Assembly: GCF_014201715.1 (NCBI RefSeq)
Contig: NZ_JACHFD010000019.1
Span: forward strand, 1-64,000
Length of the DNA: 64,000 nt
Reading direction: 5' to 3'
Source: Haloferula luteola
GTDB taxonomy: Bacteria; Verrucomicrobiota; Verrucomicrobiia; Verrucomicrobiales; Akkermansiaceae
Both the position numbers and the translations under genes were made by a program. Positions 10,238-60,467 of the stretch are shown piece after piece; within the stretch, counting starts at the first letter, position 1, and every line of letters starts with the position of its first letter. The notes under the pieces were generated by a model. The model was not told the origin of the DNA. It made no database searches and worked only from the letters and a program-made list of their open reading frames with translations.

Positions 10238-11502
10238 AATCCCACCCCTCTCCCTCCGATCCCTCTTCTTCGGAATGCCACTCCAAGCGGGACGCCAAGT
10301 CTCCGTGCTGCGGGGGCCACTCCGCGGAGCCCGCGTCTTGCGGTTGTGGGGGAGACCACCACGAAGAAACTTCTTCCGCCGCCCATTCCGCCTCGTCTTG
10401 TTGTGCAGGAAAGCACGAACACAGCGGCGAAACACACCCCCCTGCGGCAGCCTCCTGCTGCGGGGGGAGTGAAGGCGAAGCCTCCTGCTGCGGTGGAGGC
10501 GGACGCGTCGACTTCCTACTCTGGGGTTCGCTCATCGTAGTGGCTGTCGGCGTGATCGCCCACTTCATCGGCGGCGGGCCCGCAAAATGGCAAACCTTCG
10601 CCGACGGAACCTGGGAGCTGATGGCCAAATCTTGGTGGGGCATTCTCGTGGGGATTGCCGCCGTCGGAGTGCTGGGGCAGGTACCGAAGGAAGTGGTCGC
10701 CCGCCTCCTCGGACAAGGGGGCACCACCAGCGGAATCCTCCGCGCGACCTTTGCCGGCACCCTGCTCGACCTCTGCAACCATGGCATTCTCATGGTCGGC
10801 ATGCAGCTCTACCGCAAAGGAGCCTCGCTCGGTCAGGTCATCGCCTTCCTCGTTTCCAGTCCGTGGAACTCCCTCTCTCTCACCCTGATCCTCATCGGGC
10901 TCATCGGCTGGAAGTGGACCCTTTCCTTCATCGTCCTCTCGATGGTGATCGGAATCATCAGCGGCCGCGTCACCGACCTCCTCGTCAAGCGAGGCACCCT
11001 GCCGCAGAATCCCCACGCCATCGACATCCCCGAGCAATACCGTCTGCGCGACGGCCTCGCCGAAGTCTGGCGCAACATCCGGCCAGGAGATGGAAACCTC
11101 CGCCGCATGCTCAAGGCGGGCCTGAGCGAATCGCGGATGATTCTCCGCTGGATCTTCTTCGGCTTCGTCATGGCCGCTGCCATTCAAACCTTCGTCCCCG
11201 ACCACACCTTCCAGGAGTTTTTCGGACCCAGCCTGTTGGGACTTCTGCTTACCCTCATTGCCACCACCATCATTGAAGTCTGCTCCGAAGGCTCCAGCCC
11301 GATCGCGGCGGACCTGCTTCGTCGGGCCGGTGCCCCGGGCAATGCTTTCACCTTCCTGATGGCTGGCGCCGCCACGGACTACACCGAGATCATGGCACTT
11401 CGCGAAACCACTCGCTCGTGGAAAGCCACCCTCGCCCTGCCCCTCCTGACAACGCCTCAGGTGCTGTTGATTTCTTGGGTTCTGAACCACTTTAGCCGCT
11501 GA
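10234..11502 (+). CDS. SO_0444-type Cu/Zn efflux permease with Cys/His-rich leader
   Basis: A 422-residue membrane protein. The first 90 residues are a Cys/His-rich metal-binding tail with 11 cysteines in CC and CGC groups (PCCGG, SCGCGG, SCCAG, SCCGG twice) plus many histidines. Eight to ten transmembrane segments of the DUF318/ArsP permease superfamily follow, with LDLCNHG and VCSEGSSP motifs in the membrane. It overlaps the CsoR gene by 4 bp. Regulation by a C-H-C CsoR suggests copper or a similar soft metal as substrate. The family also includes zinc exporters, so the metal is inferred. Confidence 0.88.
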   Translation: MKSHPSPSDPSSSECHSKRDAKSPCCGGHSAEPASCGCGGDHHEETSSAAHSASSCCAGKHEHSGETHPPAAASCCGGSEGEASCCGGGGRVDFLLWGSLIVVAVGVIAHFIGGGPAKWQTFADGTWELMAKSWWGILVGIAAVGVLGQVPKEVVARLLGQGGTTSGILRATFAGTLLDLCNHGILMVGMQLYRKGASLGQVIAFLVSSPWNSLSLTLILIGLIGWKWTLSFIVLSMVIGIISGRVTDLLVKRGTLPQNPHAIDIPEQYRLRDGLAEVWRNIRPGDGNLRRMLKAGLSESRMILRWIFFGFVMAAAIQTFVPDHTFQEFFGPSLLGLLLTLIATTIIEVCSEGSSPIAADLLRRAGAPGNAFTFLMAGAATDYTEIMALRETTRSWKATLALPLLTTPQVLLISWVLNHFSR

Positions 11503-13111: not shown

Positions 13112-13124
13112 GATTTCAGCGGTT

Positions 13125-15083
13125 TCAGCGATCCTTGCCGCGATCTTTACGCGGCTGCTGAGGAACCATCTTACGTTGCTGCTGAGGGCGCTGAGGAGCC
13201 GCCTTGCGCTGCTGCTGAGGGCGCTGGGGAGCGGCCTTGCGCTGCTGCTGAGGGCGCTGGGGAGCGACCTTACGTTGCTGCTGCGGTTGCTGAGGAGACG
13301 CCTTGCGTTGCTGCTGAGGGCGCTGGGGAGCCGCCTTGCGTTGCTGCTGAGGGCGCTGGGGAGACGCCTTGCGCTGCTGCTGAGGGCGCTGGGGAGCGAC
13401 CTTACGTTGCTGCTGCGGTTGCTGAGGAGCGGCTTTGCGCTGCTGCTGCGGTTGCTGAGGAGCCGCCTTGCGTTGCTGCTGAGGGCGCTGGGGAGCCGCC
13501 TTGCGCTGCTGCGGTTGCTGGGGAGCCGCCTTGCGCTGCTGCGGTTGCTGAGGAGCCGCCTTGCGCTGCTGCGGTTGCTGAGGAGCCGCCTTGCGCTGCT
13601 GCGGTTGCTGAGGAGCCGCCTTGCGTTGCTGCTGAGGGCGCTGGGGAGCCGCCTTGCGCTGCTGCTGCGGTTGCTGAGGAGCCGCCTTACGGTCCTGAGC
13701 CTTCCTTTCCCCCGGACGATTCTGCTTAGGCATTGCGGCAGGAGGGCGGTTCTGAGCTCGCGAGGCGTTAGGAGCCGCAGGACGAGGACGCGCAGGAAGC
13801 CCACCCTGTCCCATCCGCTGACGGCTGGCCACAGGAGATGCCTTCATCCGTCCATCATGACTCACCTTCCCCGCAGCGGAAGGTTTCGACCTTTCCATCT
13901 CCCGACGCATGGAAGTGAACTGTTGGAACTGGGCGCGTTCAGACACGATTCGAGACTTGCGATCCGACTCCAAAGGCCGGAACCGAGCAGGACCTGAGCT
14001 GGACCGAGTCGCCGCTTCGAAAGTCGAAGCAAACAAGCGTTGACGATCATAAGGCTTCTCCAAGCACATTTGGGTCAAACCCTTCATCACCGACCAAGTG
14101 TGGGGAGGACGATAGCGATCATTCTTCCGGTAGAAATCGTATTCCTGAGCCCGCATGCGCGCCCAATGACGATCCCCACGATGTTGCCAGCTCTGGTAAG
14201 CAAAAATCGGATCATACCCGCCGTGGCGCTGATGCCATTGGAAATTCGCATAGTACCCGGCATCCCGATAACGGGGAGCATAGTAGTCACCAAAATAATA
14301 GTGATGAAGTCTCGGCCGCACGAACAAGTGTGCCGAAACCACGCCCAAATCGATCACCACCTGCGGCGTGTAGTGGTAGCCAGGACGATTCCACACCGAG
14401 TGCCGGAACGATACCGGAGCAAACAGCACCCCACGCCGGGTGATCCCGTAATCCCAATAACCATTCACGTAAACAAACCCTCGCGGCGTCCACACATAAC
14501 GGGCCGGAACCCAAGTCCAACCGCTGCGAGGCTCGATCCAGTAACCCGGACGCCACGCATAGCGGCTTTCCGACCAACGCCAGTTTCCAGGCACCCAGAC
14601 ATGGCTCTGACTCGGGGCAGCTACATTCGGCCCCACCTCCAATGTCGTCGGAGGCGCCGTAGAAACATAGGTCACCTCCTCGGTTTCCACATCTCCCCAG
14701 TAACCGGAAATCCACTGGTACCCCGAGTCGACCGAGTTCCAATACCCAGGAACCCATTGGCGACCGGGAGGCACATCCCGCCACACACCACTGATCCACA
14801 GGTAGTCATTTTGCTCATCATCCCAGCCCCAATAGCCAGGAATCCAAGCCACATTGTCCCCCTCCGGACGCTGGTCCGGTGGCAACTCATCAATCCACTC
14901 TGGCGGGGACGAGGCCACCACCAGACCGGGCTCCGGTTCGAAAGACACCGCTTCCGCAAAAGCTTCATGCATCGGCCCGCGGGTCAGCACCTCAACATCC
15001 TCTTGGGCGGCGGCCCAACCGAATGAGGCAACGACCACCAGCACCAACAGACGCATCGAGTTCAGGTTTGGTTTCGTTTTCAT
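13125..15083 (-). CDS. YXWGXW-repeat protein with low-complexity Gln/Pro/Arg tail
   Basis: A 652-residue secreted protein. After the signal peptide (about 1-26) come several WIPGYW, YLWISGVW, WVPGYW, WISGYW and WRPGYW repeats (about residues 80-230), the YXWGXW pattern of bacterial surface or periplasmic proteins. A middle part rich in Tyr/Arg/His follows. From about residue 460 the chain becomes a basic Gln/Pro/Arg/Lys tail, ending with 17 units of RKAAPQxPQQ(Q). The tail may be disordered and bind polyanions. It is not a recognised enzyme. Convergent neighbour: sulfatase. Confidence 0.85.
   Translation of the reverse strand: MKTKPNLNSMRLLVLVVVASFGWAAAQEDVEVLTRGPMHEAFAEAVSFEPEPGLVVASSPPEWIDELPPDQRPEGDNVAWIPGYWGWDDEQNDYLWISGVWRDVPPGRQWVPGYWNSVDSGYQWISGYWGDVETEEVTYVSTAPPTTLEVGPNVAAPSQSHVWVPGNWRWSESRYAWRPGYWIEPRSGWTWVPARYVWTPRGFVYVNGYWDYGITRRGVLFAPVSFRHSVWNRPGYHYTPQVVIDLGVVSAHLFVRPRLHHYYFGDYYAPRYRDAGYYANFQWHQRHGGYDPIFAYQSWQHRGDRHWARMRAQEYDFYRKNDRYRPPHTWSVMKGLTQMCLEKPYDRQRLFASTFEAATRSSSGPARFRPLESDRKSRIVSERAQFQQFTSMRREMERSKPSAAGKVSHDGRMKASPVASRQRMGQGGLPARPRPAAPNASRAQNRPPAAMPKQNRPGERKAQDRKAAPQQPQQQRKAAPQRPQQQRKAAPQQPQQRKAAPQQPQQRKAAPQQPQQRKAAPQQPQQRKAAPQRPQQQRKAAPQQPQQQRKAAPQQPQQQRKVAPQRPQQQRKASPQRPQQQRKAAPQRPQQQRKASPQQPQQQRKVAPQRPQQQRKAAPQRPQQQRKAAPQRPQQQRKMVPQQPRKDRGKDR
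13151..13691 (-). repeat. Coding 30/33-bp tandem repeat in the YXWGXW gene
   Basis: Seventeen tandem units encode RKAAPQQPQQ(Q), with variants QR/QQ at position 7, V or S at position 3 or 4, and a degenerate last unit (RKMVPQQP). Four consecutive units are 10 codons (30 bp) and the rest are 11 codons (33 bp), so unit length changes by a Gln codon. The 13176-13691 block is 516 bp. Variation in copy number by slippage is likely. Confidence 0.9.
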
Positions 15084-21008: not shown

Positions 21009-23950
21009 GGCTCCCATGAGGAAGTCGGCACGATCGACACCGCTCCACTGAATTCCTCCAAAACCGGTAACCAAGGAGCAGGCAACGAGGGGAGGATGAA
21101 ATACCCCCTGGCCTCCCCATCGACAACCACTCCCCAAAAAGCCGTCCGTCGCTTCTTCACCCGCCCTCGATCATCGAGATCCTTCAAAACAAAGGAGCCC
21201 CGAAACAGGCCTGTCTTCGGATCGATTTTCACCTCCACGGCAGCCGGATTCGCGCCCGAACCTTTCGAGGCCGTGATCACCTTCCCCGACGGCGTCAACT
21301 CCGCTCCAATGCTGGGTGAGGTGAAGGAAGCTTCGACCTTGGCTCCTGAGAATCCCAACCAAACATTTCCCGGACCTGCCCATGTCCGCAGCCAATCCAA
21401 ATGAGCACGCCCCGCATGCTGGGCCCCCCGGGCGAAGATCAACGTCTCGAACCCTGCCGGATACAACCCATCCTTCGGACTCGTTGCGACCCATCGCCTC
21501 CAATCCAGAGTCCCCTCCACACTTGCGTCTCCACTCAGATTCAACGGGCCCTGAATCGCATACCTTCCCTCCTTCGCCGCCCATACCGGGAACTCGCCTA
21601 TCGCACTCAATGGCCCCGATCCTGAAATCAACGTTCCATCTCCCAACCGACCCGACCAACGCGAAGTTCCAAATTTCGATACCCGCGTGAGCAGATAGCC
21701 ATCCCCCTGGGGAACACTCGAAATCCCCTCGTCGGTCGCCCCCAAAATCACCGGATAGATCCCAGATCCTTGCCCGATCTCCTCGCTCAAAGGAGCCCAT
21801 CGAGCCTTCCATCCTGAAATCATCGTGGGGGGATAATCCATCTCGATCACTCCCGCCCTCAATGCCCCGTCCAATCGAGCTCCCAACTGGACTTCCAGGA
21901 ATAGCGAATCCCGCTTTCGCCGAGCGATCTCGACGGTAAATCCAGCCTCGGCACCTTGTTGCTCCTCCAAGCGGCTGCGGAATCGCAACGTTTCTCCAGC
22001 CATCCGCAAACGACCACTTACTCGTCCCTTCCGGGAAACTTGGACCTCCAGGGTTCCTCCATAGCCTCCAGTCAACGACTCGGTCGCCTCTAGCAGCCCG
22101 AAATACGTTCCATTCACCGTCTCAGGCACCCTCGGTTCGGGATCTTCATCATCGAGATACCCATCGTTGTCGTCATCGGGATCCGCAAGATCCCCGATCC
22201 CATCTCCATCGGTATCAACGGACTCCATCGGGTCGAAGGGAAAGTCATCTTCCCCATCCAACACCCCATCATTGTCATCGTCCGGATCCAGCTCATCTGG
22301 AATCCCATCGCTATCGGCATCGGAAGGCCGACTGGTCGCGTCGAAGGGGTCCGTCCCAACCACGATCTCCACCTCGTCGGTGAAGCCATCGTTGTCGTCA
22401 TCCTCGTCCAAAGAATCCGGCACCCCATCGCCATCGTGATCGCTGGGAACACTGGCGGCATCGAGAGGGTCGGTGCCCACTTCCAGCTCAAGGAGGTCCG
22501 AAACCCCATCATTGTCGTCGTCCTCATCGGCCTGATCGCCCACGCCATCCCCATCCGTATCCATCCACTCCTGAGGATCCAAGGGCAGCTGGTCGAGCCC
22601 GTCCCCAGCGCCATCCCCATCCGTATCCGCCCGCTCAGGGTCCGTATGCGAGATCGTCCATTCGTGAAATGCCGTCAGGCCGTCCTCATCCGAGTCGGAA
22701 AGGTCATGAGCAAAATGGGCAATGAATTGAAGCTCGGCCGTCGCCACCGGCTCAATTTGCGCGGCAGTCGCATCACTTCCCCCGCTCCACCCTTCGAAAA
22801 TCCATCCCACTCGAGGCACGGCTTCGATCGCCACCCTCTCCCCAAGCGGGAACGTCCCACCTCCTTGAACCTCCCCACCTGCCTCGGGAGACGCCGTCAC
22901 CGCAAGGGTGACCTGCGGACTGGAAATATCATAAATCCTCACCCCAGCTTCGGTCAAAGCGAACAAATAGTGGCCATCCTCCGACACTCGCAGGTGTCCT
23001 GCCGCGAAACTGCTGTTCCCCGGATTGGGAAACAAACTCTCCTGCTCGACGATGCCCTTTGCCTCCAAGGACACCGGATCGTAGGCCACGAGCCCCGGAT
23101 AGCCATTGTAGTGAGAGGCGAACGAAATGAACAGATACGGATGCCTCACATCATACGCCACCCCTCTCGGCCACCAAGTGGCATAGGTGCCAAGGCTCCC
23201 CGAACGGGAGAGCCTTTCGCCGGTCCAATCATACACAAATGCCCCGGAATACGTCGGGACCACCAATTGATTCCCGTCAGGGGAAACGGCCACATCATAA
23301 GTAAACCAGCCGGTTCCCACCGACGCACGCAAACTCCCATCCGCCTCCAACAAGCCTGCGGTTCCGGAAGAAATTCCCGGCTCGGTAAAAGCGATCACCT
23401 GCCGATCAGCGTTCGCTGCGACAATTCCCACCCCGTAGTAACTCGTCGATACCGAACGCGCGTCTCCACTCTGGAGGTTCAATACCCGAGCACCCACCAT
23501 CACCTCTTCGTTATTCAGGAAAGCACAGGAATTGACCGTGCCGGATCCATAGCTCGCCTCCAAAGGAAAGTGCTCCACCGTTCCTTCAGGGAGGTGCAAG
23601 ATACTGATGCGACCATTGTCAGAATTACCCACTGCCAACTTGGAATGATCGGGGGATAAATCGAGCCCACGCAAGTGAGTGCCGATTTGGATCGCACCTG
23701 CTGGCTCCATACTCGGAAGCTGAAAAGTCTGCAATTTCCCCTCATCCGTCGAAACATACAGCGTCTGCGCCGTCGGATCGTAGGCCATGTCCCGAGCTCC
23801 ATCGACGGCTACATCCCCCAAGGTCCGCCACGATTCCCCCTTCGCAGTGGGCATCCCTAACGCCAACAAAATTCCGGCCATGCAGCAGGCTGTCTCCATC
23901 GCACCATCGCCACCATGTCCCAACCAACTCATGCCACCAAACACTGGCAT
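21005..23950 (-). CDS. Secreted beta-propeller protein with TSP3 calcium repeats
   Basis: A 981-residue protein (ATG 23950; 23932 and 23899 are alternative starts). After a signal peptide comes an N-terminal propeller of YVTN/WD type (about 45-350) with repeated sequences such as LYVSTDEG and DVAVSPDGNQLVV. A bacterial repeat (InlB B-like) follows, with the FEGWSGG motif (about 350-410). Then come tandem thrombospondin type-3 calcium-binding repeats (DTDGDGVGD, DEDDDNDG, about 440-600), and a C-terminal beta-rich domain. The Asp-rich repeats bind Ca2+ and act as a stiff linker. It is probably cell-surface. Coupled to the next gene by an ATGA overlap. Confidence 0.88.
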   Translation of the reverse strand: MPVFGGMSWLGHGGDGAMETACCMAGILLALGMPTAKGESWRTLGDVAVDGARDMAYDPTAQTLYVSTDEGKLQTFQLPSMEPAGAIQIGTHLRGLDLSPDHSKLAVGNSDNGRISILHLPEGTVEHFPLEASYGSGTVNSCAFLNNEEVMVGARVLNLQSGDARSVSTSYYGVGIVAANADRQVIAFTEPGISSGTAGLLEADGSLRASVGTGWFTYDVAVSPDGNQLVVPTYSGAFVYDWTGERLSRSGSLGTYATWWPRGVAYDVRHPYLFISFASHYNGYPGLVAYDPVSLEAKGIVEQESLFPNPGNSSFAAGHLRVSEDGHYLFALTEAGVRIYDISSPQVTLAVTASPEAGGEVQGGGTFPLGERVAIEAVPRVGWIFEGWSGGSDATAAQIEPVATAELQFIAHFAHDLSDSDEDGLTAFHEWTISHTDPERADTDGDGAGDGLDQLPLDPQEWMDTDGDGVGDQADEDDDNDGVSDLLELEVGTDPLDAASVPSDHDGDGVPDSLDEDDDNDGFTDEVEIVVGTDPFDATSRPSDADSDGIPDELDPDDDNDGVLDGEDDFPFDPMESVDTDGDGIGDLADPDDDNDGYLDDEDPEPRVPETVNGTYFGLLEATESLTGGYGGTLEVQVSRKGRVSGRLRMAGETLRFRSRLEEQQGAEAGFTVEIARRKRDSLFLEVQLGARLDGALRAGVIEMDYPPTMISGWKARWAPLSEEIGQGSGIYPVILGATDEGISSVPQGDGYLLTRVSKFGTSRWSGRLGDGTLISGSGPLSAIGEFPVWAAKEGRYAIQGPLNLSGDASVEGTLDWRRWVATSPKDGLYPAGFETLIFARGAQHAGRAHLDWLRTWAGPGNVWLGFSGAKVEASFTSPSIGAELTPSGKVITASKGSGANPAAVEVKIDPKTGLFRGSFVLKDLDDRGRVKKRRTAFWGVVVDGEARGYFILPSLPAPWLPVLEEFSGAVSIVPTSSWEP
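22142..22630 (-). repeat. Tandem TSP3 calcium-repeat coding region
   Basis: Repeated segments encode D-x-D-x-D-G motifs (DTDGDG, DDDNDG, DADSDG, DPDDDN). They are imperfect at DNA level and built from GAT/GAC triplets. They explain the alternating Ser/Met-rich open frames on both strands and should not be read as an array of separate elements. Confidence 0.85.
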
Positions 23951-53409: not shown

Positions 53410-54309
53410 TCAACTTCCGGAGAGCGCCTCCGCCCGCCGACGCAATCCTTCCAACACCGCCTTCGCGATCGGTCCCGGCTTGCCCCGCCACAATGCGGCA
53501 ATCTTCAATTCGGGGAAATCAGGCAGCGGAAACATCGTCACTCCCTCGGGCAATTCGGCACCGGGCAAATTCACCCCCAACCCCACCCCGAAGCCACCCG
53601 CCACATACGCCTGGACCAGCTCCATCGTGTTCACCGAAATCCGTGCCGGCCAATGGCATCCCACCTTGGCCAATCCTCTGGCAAAGGACCGCGACAGCGC
53701 CGTCTCATCCGGCGTCCGAATCAAAGGTTGGCTGGCCACGAGTGCCGACAAGCCCCCTTGAGGAACGGGACAACCCGGAGGCAATAGCAAGACCAAGGGC
53801 AATGAGAGAAACACCTCACATTGACTGCCAACGGGAGGCCGACCTTCCAACTCCGTCACCGCCAGATCAAGTTCCTCCCGCTCCAACAACTCCAACACGG
53901 CCTGTTGCCCGGCATCCAGCACCGTCAGCTCAAGCTCCGGGCAAGCAGCCCGAACTTCGGAAAGAACCGCCGGCAAGTGCTCACGCACCACCGTGGCGGG
54001 AGCAGCCAACCGCAAATGCCGCGAGGCCTTCCCTGCCACTCGTTCCGCCACCCCAGCCAGCCCGCCAAAAAACGGCGCCGCAAACTCAAACAATTCCTGG
54101 CCCGCGGGCGTCAGCTGAAATGGTCGCCGCTGAAATAAGCGCACTCCCAATTCTTTTTCCAACTGCGAGATTTGCCCACTGACCGCCGGCTGCTGAATTC
54201 CGTACGGCATCTGCCTCACCGCCGCCGTGATTCCGCCCGACTTCGCCACGTGGTAAAACAACTCAAGGTGATGCAGATTCGGCAGCGGCTGGGGCATGGC
54301 ACCGCCCAT
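53410..54309 (-). CDS. LysR-family regulator (left copy, intact)
   Basis: A 299-residue LTTR. The HTH reads LELFYHVAKSGGITAAVRQMPYGIQQPAVSGQISQLEKELG. The remainder is a substrate-binding domain of normal length. Its first 160 bp are duplicated at 58189-58349. The ancestral neighbour was probably the DUF393 gene, now 4 kb away. No target is known. Confidence 0.9.
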   Translation of the reverse strand: MGGAMPQPLPNLHHLELFYHVAKSGGITAAVRQMPYGIQQPAVSGQISQLEKELGVRLFQRRPFQLTPAGQELFEFAAPFFGGLAGVAERVAGKASRHLRLAAPATVVREHLPAVLSEVRAACPELELTVLDAGQQAVLELLEREELDLAVTELEGRPPVGSQCEVFLSLPLVLLLPPGCPVPQGGLSALVASQPLIRTPDETALSRSFARGLAKVGCHWPARISVNTMELVQAYVAGGFGVGLGVNLPGAELPEGVTMFPLPDFPELKIAALWRGKPGPIAKAVLEGLRRRAEALSGS

Positions 54310-54391
54310 AGCAATTTCCCGATGGTTCCCGCAATCTCAACCCCACTCCCCGCTGGACACCTGAACTTCCACGGCGATCTCTTCTCCATCG
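54149..54391. repeat. 243-bp direct repeat, left copy
   Basis: Identical to 58189-58431 except for three positions: 54217 C/T, 54265 A/G and 54303 C/G (98.8 percent identity). It covers the 5' 161 bp of the LysR gene plus about 82 bp of upstream region, and its right end coincides with the break where the inserted DNA begins. Confidence 0.97.
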
Positions 54392-54906
54392 CTCGCTGAT
54401 GTCCTCGATTCCTTGCGCAAGCGCGCCGACGCTCGCATGCCGGATCCTTTCAAGGCCTTCCCCGAGCTGGCCGACTTCCAGCTCAACACCGGCGACGGCC
54501 ATTTCATCGCCCTCCGCCGCGCACGATCCGCGTCAGTTCGACGGGCGCCGCTTCCCTGTCGGCCACATCTATAGGTTCAACCTCAGCAGTCACACCGCCA
54601 ACCATCTCTGCGTCAGGGACCAGGACGCCTGCCGCCAAGAGCACAACATGCGCGCGCTCAGACGACAGAACCTCGCCGTGGTGCGTCAGGGCGCGCCCAA
54701 GGGCGGGTGGAAACCACCCACTCCGTCGATGCGACCGACCCGGCCAACTGGGGCGTGCGCGCCGACGAAGACGTCACCGACTTCGCCGGCCGCAAAATGA
54801 GGCGGATTGTCTTCCCAAAGAGAGAGGCAAAACCTACGTCTATCTGATCAATTTTCCGCGCAAGGTTCGGCCCAGCGTCATCGCACTGCTCTCCAAAGTT
54901 CACTGA
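54392..54906 (+). pseudogene. IS4-like transposase remnant, 5' part
   Basis: Degraded coding sequence with several frame changes. Recognisable pieces are PDPFKAFPELADFQLNTGDGHF, then FDGRRFPVGHIYRFNLSSHTANHL...EHNMRALRRQNLAVVRQGAPKG, and later VRPSVIALLSKVH before the junction at 54906. Similar segments occur in IS4-family DDE transposases. A stretch of several tens of codons is missing after GAPKG. The 3' part is at 55790. Confidence 0.75.
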
Positions 54907-55789
54907 GAGGCGGCCTGAAGAATCGTCACCCCGCGGACCTTAATCTGTACTAATTTTGTTAGGCATTGGAAAAGCTCGGGATGCGCGAGTATCCGAGCCG
55001 CTTGACCGATACTGAGTGGGAGATCATCCGCCCGCTTCATCCTGATTGCCCGATGGGATTTCGGGGTCGTCCGCGGGAGCACTCGCGGCGCAGCATCCTC
55101 AACGGCATTTTCTACATCGTTCAGACCGGCGGCGCGTGGCGCATAATGCAGCACGACCTACCCCCCTTGGAAGACCTGCCACCACTACTCCCGCTTGTGG
55201 GCCAAACAGGTCCACTGAGAGCGGATCCATCACGCCGTCCGGGATCTGGCCCGGCTCAAAGTCGTAAAAAAAGCCTCGACTGCTGCGATCCTCGATAGCC
55301 AAAGCGTTCGGACACCTATCCAGCCCGGAATTCGTGGCTTTGATGCGGGTAAGAAGATCACAGGAAGAAAGAGACACGTCCTGGTAGACACCCTCGGTTT
55401 CATCCATTCCCTAAAGGTGACTCCCGCCGACGTGCAGGACCGGAACGGAGCCCGTTTGCTGATGGCGATCCTCACCACCGCTTATGGCTGGCTCAAACTG
55501 ATCTGGGCCGACGGAGGCTACGCCGGCCAACTGGTGGGCGAAGTCGCCCGGCTCAAGAGGCACCCTCAGATTGACCTCGAAATCGCGAAGCGAGGGGACG
55601 ACGTGAAGGGCTTCAAAGTCCTGCCGAAACGCTGGATCGTGGAGCGAACCTTCGGGTGATTGGTCCAATCCCACCGTTTGATCCGCGGCCACGTGGTGAA
55701 AATCGAGCGCTCCGAAGCACTCATCTATCTGTCAATGACCAGACGAATGCTCGCCAGAGTCGCCGTATGACTTTTTTTCAGACTGACTC
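54907..55789 (+). mobile_element. IS5-family insertion sequence (883 bp)
   Basis: The element is bounded by imperfect inverted repeats of about 29 bp (20 of 29 positions match): left end GAGGCGGCCTGAAGAATC, right end (reversed) GAGTCAGTCTGAAAAAAA. A TGA triplet is directly repeated on both sides (54904-54906 and 55790-55792), a TNA target duplication typical of the IS427 subgroup of IS5. It is inserted in an IS4-like transposase remnant, so it arrived later. Confidence 0.9.
54966..55770 (+). pseudogene. IS5-family transposase, inactivated
   Basis: Coding sequence from TTG 54966 (or ATG 54981) to TGA 55770. It matches the IS5 group: YPSRLTDTEWEIIRPL, HSRRSILNGIFYIVQTGGAWR, then AILDSQSVRT, GKKITGRKRHVLVDTLG, WADGGYAG, RWIVERTFG. 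The DDE acidic residues lie in these motifs. It is broken by a frameshift near 55160-55165 (a C-rich run) and two in-frame TGA codons (55216-55218 and 55657-55659), both where IS5 proteins have Trp. Confidence 0.88.
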
Positions 55790-56173
55790 TGAGGCATCGA
55801 GAAAGTCTTCGACCAGTTCAAGGGCAAGCTGCACGAGCCCGAGGCGTGGGCGACGACCGCCAACACCAAGTCCGTGCCAGCGCGTGTTCGGTGCCTGACA
55901 CACACCCTGACGCTGCTGCTCGAAGAAGAAATCCGCGACAAGGCCTGCATCGACAACGTCGCAGAGAAGTGCCGCCGCGCCGACGAACTGGCCAAGCGCG
56001 ACCGCAGCCTGCGTGCTGCTGGATTGGGCGCGATCCAGCCCTTGCTGCGCTGCGTCCAACGGATCACGCAGCGAGCAACAAAGTTCATCCGCTGGTTGCG
56101 CAATCATTTGGATTCCTCGCGTCCCAACGCCGAAGCTCTGGCACGTCTCACCAAGATCTACGCGACATCATGA
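55790..56173 (+). pseudogene. IS4-like transposase remnant, 3' part
   Basis: Continues the split gene: GIEKVFDQFKGKLHEPEAWA...ARVRCLTHTLTLLLEEEI...RITQRATKFIRWLRNHL...ALARLTKIYATS, ending at TGA 56171-56173. If the IS5 element is removed, the reading frame runs from LLSKVH through TGA to GIEKVF; the TGA replaces the Trp usual before IEKVFD. This shows the transposase was already broken or broke upon insertion. Confidence 0.85.
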
Positions 56174-56407
56174 CATCATCTTTGGACCCTGTTGGTTTGT
56201 CCCACATTTACCACCTCAAGTGGGCTATGGGCGGGGGAGGCATTCGGATTCACAACAGCAGGGTCTCCAGTCGAGCACCAAGTAGGAGGAGTGGCAGACA
56301 CCACGGAAGACGGCAAAGAAAATGCACCCATTAGAAATAGCACAACCTTTCGGCCACTGCATATTAAATATTTTCATCAATACAAAAGATGAAAATGAAC
56401 CATTCCT
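56174..56407. other. Low-GC spacer in the island
   Basis: 234 bp without a gene. The base composition becomes clearly AT-richer here than in the flanks, starting near 56330. It includes the end of the IS4 remnant and the 3' flank of the YadA-head gene. Confidence 0.4.
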
Positions 56408-57649
56408 TTACTCGAAAATCCCCATCGAGATGTCGCCTTGAGCTTTATCCAATACCACATCCCCTTTAAGGCGGGTGTTTCCTTCAACGACCAAAGCCTC
56501 ACCAAAGGAGTTTTGAGACGCCGGGATCACCGCAGGGTCGGCTTTCCAGGCTTTGTTGGTTAGAATCGTGCACCCGTTCTTGAGGGTGGTAATAGCATCG
56601 GATCGATTGAGGTAGTCGTCACCATTACCGAGGCGAAAAAGTGCGTCAGTCTCATTCCAAGTGGTTGTAGCTATTGAAGTCCTTGCCCATGATCCGAAAT
56701 TCATTTCATGGGGGGTATTGACTTGAAGGCCATAGCCAACAGCAGTGGCAGCCACAGCCTCAGCTCTGGCGTACGACCCTAATGCAATGGCGAATCCCGT
56801 AGAATCATATCCCTCCCCTTCTCGTTTGCTATCAGCGAGGCATAGATGCCCGTACACAAAAGAGTTATAATTTATGCTTTTGCTATGCCATCCCCCTACA
56901 AAGTTAAGATTCCCGAGAGCTTGGGTGCTTCGCCCAAGGGCGAAGGATTCATATCCGTCAGCTTTCGCGCCGTGACCGAACGCCGCCGAGCGGATTCCAT
57001 TGGCTTCAACTGCCCAGCCAGCAGCAAAACCTGCTTGAGCTGTTGCTTTTGAAAGCACCCCAAAAGCGGCAGAACTTCCCACTGCAGAGGTTAAATAACC
57101 CATCGAAATGCCGCTTTCCCAGTGGTTACTTTGGATCAATCCTGCGCCGAGCTCAAAGCCAGTTGTTTGTTGTAGCGCGGTTGCAAGGTTAGCATTGGTA
57201 ACGGCTGGTGACCCGCTGACCGAGAGAGTAGTTGCCATAATGGCACCTGTGCTCCCGCTCAGGACAATTGAGGGCGATCCACCAGATGCATTATAAATAC
57301 TTAAATCATTATCACCACTTAACTCCATTTTATTCCTGCCTATTGAATTCTCCAAGTTATCTCTCCAGACCAATGAAGAATTCGGCTCAGTGAAGTCGAT
57401 GGATGCAGATTTGGATGAAGCATTCCAATCCATAGTTACTGCCGCAGTGGGTGAGCTAGCATTCGTAGTACCAAAGTCGACAGCTCCCGCAGCACTAAGA
57501 TCACCTTGAACCAAAAGTGTTCCTGGATCACTTGAGCTGTCGACCACGAAATTATTACTAGTATCAAGAAGCACTGCAGAATTGACAGAGGAAGATCCTA
57601 TAGTAGATACTAAGAGAAGAATCTTAATATGTGATATTTTGGTATTCAT
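56408..57649 (-). CDS. Secreted protein with YadA-like head repeats
   Basis: 413 residues from ATG 57649. It has a signal peptide (basic start, hydrophobic core, Ser/Ala site), a beta-rich N-terminal half, and from about residue 190 to 330 repeats of trimeric autotransporter head type (SSAAFG, AQAGFAAGWAVEANGIRSAAFG, ADGYESFALGRSTQALG). The usual YadA membrane anchor is absent; the protein ends in DKAQGDISMGIFE, a closing motif I associate with large Verrucomicrobia surface proteins. The gene has lower GC than neighbours, consistent with transfer. Confidence 0.7.
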   Translation of the reverse strand: MNTKISHIKILLLVSTIGSSSVNSAVLLDTSNNFVVDSSSDPGTLLVQGDLSAAGAVDFGTTNASSPTAAVTMDWNASSKSASIDFTEPNSSLVWRDNLENSIGRNKMELSGDNDLSIYNASGGSPSIVLSGSTGAIMATTLSVSGSPAVTNANLATALQQTTGFELGAGLIQSNHWESGISMGYLTSAVGSSAAFGVLSKATAQAGFAAGWAVEANGIRSAAFGHGAKADGYESFALGRSTQALGNLNFVGGWHSKSINYNSFVYGHLCLADSKREGEGYDSTGFAIALGSYARAEAVAATAVGYGLQVNTPHEMNFGSWARTSIATTTWNETDALFRLGNGDDYLNRSDAITTLKNGCTILTNKAWKADPAVIPASQNSFGEALVVEGNTRLKGDVVLDKAQGDISMGIFE

Positions 57650-58188
57650 AACAGCAAAGTCTTGTTTGTGCATCCATCGACATTATGGAATATTGATGGC
57701 TGTTTTTAGAAGTGACATACTGATTTGACCAAATCGAATTATGCTGTCGAGCAAAAAGAGAATCTCCTTGAAGAGCTTGACAGGTATTGAGATCAAGGTT
57801 TAGGCACCAAACCCACCCCGTCATACCGAACTGATCATGCTCAGTAAACGCTGAACGGAGCGCGTTGAAGAATCGATTGTCATTTCGACAGGAGGGATGA
57901 TACCTCTCGTGGGTATGCTGTGCGGGTGGCGGGTAAGCTCCCACGCCCATCCCAATCAATCTACTTCGATAATTCTCTCAAACAATCCTCAGTAAGTTGA
58001 TGTCCTTCATGCTCCCAACTGGAGCAAGGGAAGCGACATCTTTAACCCAGAGACCATTTAGTCGGCGGAATTCGACGAGCTTTTCTTCAAAGGTAATGGG
58101 GGTTGGAAACGGGTTATACTCCAAAAATAAAAAAGCTTACCATACTTTTGAATCTGAGGTTGCACCTGACCGTTTTCCGCAATCCATA
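57650..58188. other. Low-GC region between the YadA-head gene and the right repeat
   Basis: No complete gene. On the minus strand a short frame (about 57978-58124) reads FEEKLVEFRRLNGLWVKDVA and may be the tail of a lost gene. AT-rich, unlike the rest of the window. The right border of the island is at 58188. Confidence 0.4.
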
Positions 58189-58349
58189 AATTCTTTTTCC
58201 AACTGCGAGATTTGCCCACTGACCGCCGGCTGCTGAATTCCGTACGGCATCTGCCTTACCGCCGCCGTGATTCCGCCCGACTTCGCCACGTGGTAAAACA
58301 ACTCGAGGTGATGCAGATTCGGCAGCGGCTGGGGCATGGCACGGCCCAT
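58189..58349 (-). pseudogene. Truncated copy of the LysR gene
   Basis: Encodes the first 53 codons of the LysR regulator (ending at EKE) and then runs into foreign sequence. It is the right-hand end of the duplicated block, 4,040 bp from the intact gene. Not expected to yield a functional regulator. Confidence 0.9.
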
Positions 58350-58431
58350 AGCAATTTCCCGATGGTTCCCGCAATCTCAACCCCACTCCCCGCTGGACAC
58401 CTGAACTTCCACGGCGATCTCTTCTCCATCG
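58189..58431. repeat. 243-bp direct repeat, right copy
   Basis: Matches 54149-54391 with three mismatches. It ends exactly at the GTG start of the DUF393 gene, so the upstream region of this gene is the duplicated sequence. Confidence 0.97.
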
Positions 58432-58811
58432 TGCACCCATCCCCATCTGCGCCCGTGATTGTTCGCTACGATGGGAGCTGCCTCTTTTGCTCCCGCAGCG
58501 TTCAACTCGTCGCCCACCTCGACCGCCATGATCGAGTCCGTTTCCGAGCTTTGGAGAACGGTCAGGATGCCGGCACCATGCAGTTGGAGATCGGAGATGC
58601 CATCTTGGAGCACTCCGATGCGGTCCTCGCCCTCCTCTCCACCCTCGGAGCTCCTTGGTCCGCCATCGCCAAAGGGGCCTCCTTCATTCCCCGCTCACTT
58701 CGCGATGCCGCCTACCGCTGGATCGCGCGCCATCGCCACCACTTCAAGAGCCGTCACTGCTCCGTTCCCGATGAAGAGGTTCGGCGACGAATGCTGCATG
58801 CGGACCCATGA
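58431..58811 (+). CDS. DUF393 (DCC1-like) thiol-disulfide oxidoreductase
   Basis: A 126-residue protein (GTG 58431; ATG 58362 is in frame but would place the start only 12 bp from the divergent LysR copy). VIVRYDGSCLFCSRSVQ contains the C-x-x-C thioredoxin-like active site of the family, and RFRALENG follows. It would have been next to the intact LysR gene before the insertion, so that regulator is a plausible controller. Confidence 0.82.
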   Translation: MHPSPSAPVIVRYDGSCLFCSRSVQLVAHLDRHDRVRFRALENGQDAGTMQLEIGDAILEHSDAVLALLSTLGAPWSAIAKGASFIPRSLRDAAYRWIARHRHHFKSRHCSVPDEEVRRRMLHADP

Positions 58812-59354: not shown

Positions 59355-60467
59355 TTGCTTCACCACGGCGATTGGCCTTGGTATTCCTGCGTGTCGCCGG
59401 AGAGCCGTCAGGATTTTGCCTTTGCCTTCTTGAGCATCCTCTTTGAAGGGGCCCCATTCATTCTCCTTGGAACGCTGGTAAGCGGCTTCATCGATGCCTA
59501 CCTCCCCGCGAATACCATGGACCGGCTGCTGCCCCGGCGGAAACTCCCGGCCATCCTTGTGGCGGGGCTCCTCGGGGCGATCCTTCCGGTCTGTGAGTGT
59601 GCAGTCGTACCGGTGATCCGTCGCTTGGTCAAAAAGGGCCTACCGGTGTCTTGTGCGCTCACCTACATGCTGGCAGCACCGATCGTCAATCCGATCACCG
59701 CCCTCTCGACCTGGAAAGCTTTCAAAGGCCCGCAGGTGTCATTCGGTGATCTCGGCCTGTTCCCGGCCAGTGCGGTGATGACCGCCTCGCGCCTGGGCTT
59801 GGGGTTCCTCATCGCGGTAGGGGTCGGCATACTGGTTTCCCGACTGCCCTTGCGCGCAGTTTTGCGGCCCAAATTGATCGATTCTCTGGATGAGGGTGAC
59901 GTCCATCATTCTCACGATGAGGCGCATGGCTGTGCCTGCCACTCTCACCCCGAGGTTCCTTCTGCCGATGCCTCGCATGCCTGCCACGAAGGATGCGGCC
60001 ATGATCACGCTCACTCGGCCCACTCTGGAGACGACCGATTGGTTTCCGCCATCCGCTCGGCGATGCGAGACTTCACCGATGTGGGCGTCTATTTCACCAT
60101 CGGCGTCGCCATCACCGCCCTCTTCAATACAGGCATCGCTCCCGGCAAGGAATGGTTGGATTCGATTGCGGAAAACACCACCGCCGCGCCGGCGGCCCTG
60201 ATGGCACTGGCGTTTGTGTTGAGCCTCTGCAGCACCTCAGATGCCTTCATCGCGGCCACTCTTCATAAGTTTTCATGGGGCGCCAAATTGGCATTCCTGA
60301 CCTTTGGGCCCATGATGGATGTGAAGCTGATCTTTCTTTACCAAACCGTGATGAAACGGCGCTTCATCCTTGGCTTGGCCGTAGGAATTTTCCTCGCCAT
60401 TGGCTTGGCAGCGATCGCCTGGCAAGCTGGCATCAGCGCCCTCAATCCACCCACCGGGCAGCCATGA
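59355..60467 (+). CDS. SO_0444/DUF318-type permease with His/Cys-rich loop
   Basis: 370 residues from TTG 59355 (no better start was found). The permease motifs PVCECAVVPVIRRLVKKGLP and APIVNPITALSTW belong to the DUF318 superfamily. A central cytoplasmic loop (about 195-225) is packed with His and Cys (HHSHDEAHGCACHSH, CHEGCGHDHAHSAHSG) for metal binding. LCSTSDAFIAATL lies in a later helix. Translationally coupled to the next gene by ATGA. Zinc or another transition metal is likely. Confidence 0.85.
   Translation: MLHHGDWPWYSCVSPESRQDFAFAFLSILFEGAPFILLGTLVSGFIDAYLPANTMDRLLPRRKLPAILVAGLLGAILPVCECAVVPVIRRLVKKGLPVSCALTYMLAAPIVNPITALSTWKAFKGPQVSFGDLGLFPASAVMTASRLGLGFLIAVGVGILVSRLPLRAVLRPKLIDSLDEGDVHHSHDEAHGCACHSHPEVPSADASHACHEGCGHDHAHSAHSGDDRLVSAIRSAMRDFTDVGVYFTIGVAITALFNTGIAPGKEWLDSIAENTTAAPAALMALAFVLSLCSTSDAFIAATLHKFSWGAKLAFLTFGPMMDVKLIFLYQTVMKRRFILGLAVGIFLAIGLAAIAWQAGISALNPPTGQP

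Follow-up and report, generated by a model that had tools for sequence, protein, structure and literature searches.

A 243-bp direct repeat encloses a chromosomal-type island at a LysR/DUF393 locus of Haloferula luteola and may record an insertion-duplication event

In the window analysed here (the whole stretch of 64,000 nucleotides, positions 1 to 64,000 of contig NZ_JACHFD010000019.1 from Haloferula luteola), two direct copies of a 243-bp segment enclose an island that stands between a LysR-family gene and a DUF393 gene. We put at about 0.5 the probability that a single insertion-duplication left this island behind, through one crossover between the chromosome and a circle sharing 243 bp of homology with it. 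The simplest view of the island itself is that of a Verrucomicrobiota chromosome fragment in which a two-gene surface locus has been disrupted, and the whole fits an old scar from a known kind of recombination and not an active element. If so, the locus shows how, in nature, foreign DNA can come in beside working genes without breakage, the flanking genes being unbroken because entry duplicated their shared promoter region. Insertion-duplication would then be a cheap route for DNA gain that leaves a readable scar, and it would explain why the island resembles a mobile element yet carries no machinery to move.

The repeat and the genes on either side

The two copies of the repeat occupy positions 54149-54391 and 58189-58431 and differ by three mismatches, exactly as an earlier note on this DNA had described them; they align without gaps, at 98.8% identity. 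The longest exact stretch between them is 88 nt, and the pair aligns by BLAST with E = 7.5e-123, which excludes chance. No third copy of the block was found in the 4.9-Mb draft assembly. In composition, LysR codons 1-54 account for 161 bp of the repeat and the LysR-DUF393 intergenic region for 82 bp, so that the left copy holds these codons with the LysR upstream region, and the right copy holds a truncated LysR start with the upstream region of the intact DUF393 gene. The earlier note had also proposed that 4,040 bp came in; this figure is correct as the offset between the copies, but only 3,797 bp are new unique sequence, the remaining 243 bp being the second copy of the repeat.

Both outer genes are whole and both inner ends are truncated at the repeats. 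On the left, the LysR-family regulator (53410-54309, minus strand) is an intact frame of 299 codons with both Pfam domains (HTH_1 and LysR_substrate), and alignment with 15 relatives places its likely start at the ATG at 54297 (MPQPLPNL). Its inner counterpart at the right repeat (58137-58349, minus strand) is a frame of 70 aa in which 54 codons of the DNA-binding domain run into foreign sequence. On the right, a free-standing gene for a DUF393/DCC1-like thiol-disulfide oxidoreductase (58431-58811, plus strand; Pfam PF04134) is an intact frame of 126 residues starting with the GTG at 58431, and is followed by a permease gene (59355-60467, plus strand) that also comes after DUF393 in relatives. 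Open reading frames and Pfam thus agree with the earlier assignment of an intact LysR gene to the left copy and an intact DUF393 gene to the right one. This layout, with whole genes outside the pair of repeats and truncated ones inside it, argues for insertion-duplication.

Two of the three differences between the copies could be polarised, and each copy carries one derived base. At 54217/58257 (C/T) the derived base is in the right copy, as judged against the nearest relatives (GTG), and at 54265/58305 (A/G) it is in the left copy, all relatives having CTC; both changes are synonymous. The third difference (54303/58343, C/G) precedes the likely LysR start, and its polarity is not assignable. 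Three sites are too few to separate donor divergence from later drift, and neither a related-strain donor nor later decay is strongly favoured as their origin. These differences also bear on the possibility that the structure was made by the assembly, through the joining of two strains or the misplacement of a contig. The assembly is a draft of 84 contigs, but copies that differ at three sites, with exact stretches of at most 88 nt, are separated by common k-mer and read lengths, and both junctions lie inside one contig of 79.7 kb. We therefore regard an artefact as very improbable.

The locus in relatives

The insert-free divergent LysR/DUF393 pair that the earlier note suggested looking for in relatives is present in ten same-genus genomes, often with the same permease gene next. 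The comparison includes Haloferula rosea, Luteolibacter marinus and Haloferula sp. BvORR071 and covers one genome per species; these empty sites come from other species of the genus. In six of the ten, the distance from the NLHH motif of LysR to the DG.C motif of DUF393 is 116-143 bp, and in the window, measured over the right repeat copy, it is 151 bp; three others have longer spacers (252, 636 and 638 bp), the motif distance having been measured in nine of the ten. Uninterrupted pairs of near-equal spacing in relatives support insertion-duplication, and the segment that stands here on both sides of the insert, as direct copies, is present once in the empty sites of these other species.

The claim that LysR and DUF393 were once adjacent stands in part only. 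It is backed by the ten genomes and by the similar spacing in six, but the closest LysR relatives belong to a set of six genomes (L079, L080, L081, L085, L086 and L087) in which about 2.2-2.4 kb of other genes separate the two, and that adjacency before the insertion has to be inferred is a point against insertion-duplication. In the two of these six loci that were read gene by gene, the intervening region holds a desaturase-like gene and a small gene, and DUF393 itself is fused to a membrane domain that lies there too. The window DUF393 is homologous to the C-terminal domain of this fused protein and clusters in the tree with the membrane-fused set (97/94 support, on a long branch), and adjacency is therefore probably secondary in this lineage. 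Judging from these sequences, the middle genes were probably lost first by deletion, bringing LysR and DUF393 together again, and the insert came later.

An alternative is that a single event replaced the desaturase and membrane genes, as found in the nearest kin, with the island and a copy of the LysR start. The clustering with membrane-fused homologues speaks for it, as does the observation that similarity to the fused protein begins just past the end of the repeat. Under replacement, however, the end base shared by both repeat copies would be a coincidence, whereas a prior junction of LysR and DUF393 would explain it naturally, and the spacing in the window is close to that of the adjacent relatives. 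We consider such a replacement improbable. A search of this genome with the membrane-fused protein matched through its DUF393 part alone, and the island yielded no trace of a desaturase or of the membrane domain. The many weak matches besides DUF393 itself were rejected as composition noise, being scattered over GC-rich frames across the whole region.

Content of the island

Next to the left repeat lies the left part of an IS4-family transposase remnant (54392-54906, plus strand), recognised by translation and alignment with full-length IS4 relatives. Some 97 codons and the left end are gone, the remnant starting near codon 98, and what is left carries frameshifts and an internal deletion. A decayed IS5-family element (54907-55789, plus strand; DUF4096 and DDE_Tnp_1, from Pfam, NCBIfam and aligned ends) sits inside this remnant, with imperfect terminal inverted repeats (GAG..G.CTGAA.AA..GTCA) and a TGA on either side (54904-54906 and 55790-55792); over about 880 bp its reading frame changes once and is broken by two in-frame stops. 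The right part of the IS4 remnant follows (55793-56191, plus strand) and comprises the C-terminal 125 residues and the right end (TTTGGACCCTG); it is 50% identical to the copy in genome G151, and its right end resembles those at loci L060 and L062. The IS4 fragment had no match in plasmids, and the island holds no intact transposase. Set against the 3 differences in the 243 bp of the repeat, the stops and frame change of the IS5 element are too few to tell decay before entry from decay after it, and the IS5 group may have a natural frameshift.

The IS4 remnant is cut internally at the border of the left repeat (54392), and IS4 transposition therefore did not make this junction. A transposon target duplication was rejected on this ground and because the right border is AT-rich, non-IS sequence lacking terminal inverted repeats. 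Remnants of both families are thus present, and the IS5 element keeps both ends and a 3-bp duplication, but neither element borders the repeats with an intact end. To our knowledge, neither the IS4 nor the IS5 family makes 243-bp duplications, so the earlier judgement that the repeat is too long for a normal target duplication holds: it exceeds what the two transposon remnants present would make.

The only whole gene recognised in the island (56408-57673, minus strand) encodes a secreted protein (at most 421 aa) that contains a YadA-head stretch (Pfam PF05658) and the C-terminal tail ALVVEGNTRLKGDVVLDKAQGDISMGIFE. Directly downstream of it, in the same order as in relatives, is the start of a partner gene (56192-56392, minus strand) with a signal peptide and the motif P.WC..GDP.V...VNVGQ, broken by the IS4 right end. 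The match of this start to a profile built from six intact partners is weak (E 0.006) but is the best in the whole window. Upstream of the YadA-head gene, 515 bp of AT-rich sequence (57674-58188, minus strand) end at the right repeat and contain no intact frame with a known family.

A conserved C-terminal tail that ends in QGDISMG plus a few residues is common to secreted proteins, several of them with YadA-head-like repeats. Genes with the exact pattern number four in this genome (the one in the window and those at G000 C18:79912, C20:6144 and C24:7147), and more are found in five other genomes of the order (G013, G016, G029, G030 and G054; loci L235-L243). A first scan of the genome contigs with the YadA-head protein had returned no relatives. 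No Pfam or NCBIfam match covers the tail of the window protein, and the string was not found in the literature searched. In most relatives, the product of the next gene downstream combines a signal peptide with a P(E/A)WW motif and recurring GQ(L/A)K stretches (L236, L238, L239, L240, L242 and L243), after which come variable parts: a TSP3 repeat, a bacterial Ig domain, or a start of the SpvB type, like that of RHS-like proteins. From this shared order, the QGDISMG gene and its partner look like a conserved two-gene surface locus, and the pair is a more open question than the island itself.

It could be imagined that the YadA-head gene with its QGDISMG tail and the P.WW..GQLK partner form a surface-protein cassette that passes from one Verrucomicrobiota chromosome to another by homology-anchored capture, the island being one such transfer; we hold this to be very doubtful. 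No flanking direct repeats were found around the QGDISMG/YadA-head genes at C18, C20, C24 and C38, part of C38 consisting of N. Two further observations concern the surroundings of such genes. At C10:58614-59579 of G016 (L237), an IS5 copy with 78% identity to that of the island comes no more than about 80 bp after a QGDISMG gene, which is possibly a preferred landing region and possibly a coincidence. On C18 of G000 (L246), an exact 85-bp inverted repeat (11384-11468 and 13957-14041, about 2.5 kb apart) lies near the QGDISMG gene and the contig end.

No integrase, recombinase, tRNA, phage or plasmid gene was recognised in the island. This bears on the idea that it is the remnant of a site-specific integrative element with long attL and attR sites that has lost its integrase. 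Direct repeats at both ends, with one whole target gene on each side, are what such a remnant would show, but the content is of chromosomal type, and 243 bp is long for an att core. The YadA-head protein has no relatives in viral contigs, and DUF393 has none there either. We regard an integrative element as most improbable. Today the island is inert, except that it could be lost by RecA-type recombination of the repeats and that the YadA-head gene may be expressed.

How the island may have entered

In the insertion-duplication that we favour, a molecule carrying the 243-bp LysR/DUF393 promoter region beside a 3.8-kb chromosomal fragment would have entered the cell or arisen in it, the fragment containing the YadA-head gene, the start of the partner gene and the IS4 remnant with the IS5 remnant inside it. 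We infer that this molecule closed into a circle, which would then have recombined once with the resident 243 bp by a RecA-type crossover. Such a single crossover leaves the content of the circle between two direct copies of the shared segment, so that on the left LysR would remain whole with its upstream region, on the right DUF393 would retain its own upstream region, and neither would be broken. The genome has a ComEC gene, which makes DNA uptake possible, but this gene is widespread and proves nothing. The circle itself must have held two illegitimate junctions, which counts against the model, and the three differences between the copies are allowed but not required by it. It also counts against the model that neither a circle, nor a donor, nor an empty site in the same species was seen among the genomes compared, one per species.

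Events of this kind (Campbell-type) have been obtained in E. coli with a linearised plasmid carrying one homologous segment, where a PCR product diagnostic of a duplication, and not of a deletion, was found in 56 of 60 Lac- clones, and the duplications in 14 sequenced clones measured 109-950 bp (PMC3240628). In the interpretation of Amarir-Bouhram and colleagues, they arose by a single crossover of a circle, most likely formed when the linearised DNA, after some degradation, closed again; such single crossovers were recA-dependent (PMC3240628). The island shares with the E. coli products the presence of foreign DNA beside a duplicated homologous target segment, and its 243 bp fall within the range found there. 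Unlike them, it is natural and old, has no selectable marker, and three sites now differ between its copies. Homology-facilitated illegitimate recombination, described for S. pneumoniae, A. baylyi and P. stutzeri (PMC3240628), likewise brings foreign DNA linked to a short homologous anchor into the chromosome. It has one homologous side and generally deletes target DNA, whereas here the target is duplicated and no loss is needed at the inferred empty site.

Capture in situ at a staggered break is the chief alternative: nicks in opposite strands 243 nt apart would be followed by filling of the overhangs and joining of a stray chromosomal fragment, so that one step would leave a flanking duplication of 243 bp resembling that of a transposon. 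Both novel junctions would then come from one event. The copies would initially have been identical, the 3 differences in 243 bp (one polarised per copy) being later drift. At the left junction, a possible 3-bp overlap with an IS4 relative (TCG, the Ser codon before LADVL) can also be read in its favour. However, no Ku gene was found in the assembly, which is 95.5% complete; this counts against classical end joining and would require the joining to be Ku-independent. Nor was a second such event found in the 1.24 Mb sampled. This capture is a tentative reading that we hold clearly less probable than insertion-duplication.

Circle integration and tandem duplication followed by insertion had both been offered in the earlier note, and of these the circle is now the best of the models while the second ranks low. 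In the latter, the promoter region would have been duplicated in tandem first, and foreign DNA would have arrived later at or near the junction, with loss of the intervening DNA. Tandem gene duplication is known in this genome (a 1.3-kb duplication, 92% identical, at G000 C3:104265-106864, L226), but the insert would have had to hit the precise boundary between the copies, or else deletions would have had to stop right at the copy edges, and no duplicated neighbour is left in the island. We judge this order of events unlikely. The insert DNA has no match in the rest of the window, and elsewhere in the genome only IS5 copies match it, so the island is not a duplicated neighbour, and duplication of a neighbouring stretch was rejected on this basis.

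To place the repeat in the context of the genome, we sampled stretches totalling 1.24 Mb of the 4.9 Mb (25% of the genome). In these, the pair is the sole direct repeat of at least 80 bp and at least 92% identity outside tandem arrays and gene duplications, and no further island between long direct repeats, nor any other copy of the event, was found. Given this uniqueness in the sampled 1.24 Mb, the island looks like a single event and not a recurring element.

Repeats of other kinds were also seen. Contig C2 of G000 (L188) carries arrays of ~155-bp tandem repeats, about 90% alike, at 82516-83192, 83790-84571 and 94714-95851, two of them close together and the third 11 kb off. Within the window, a direct-repeat array of 33 bp in 12 overlapping copies (13124-13738) presumably codes for an 11-residue repeat, and four 56-nt repeats spaced by 105-120 bp (22161-22561) probably code on the minus strand for calcium-binding, TSP3-like repeats.
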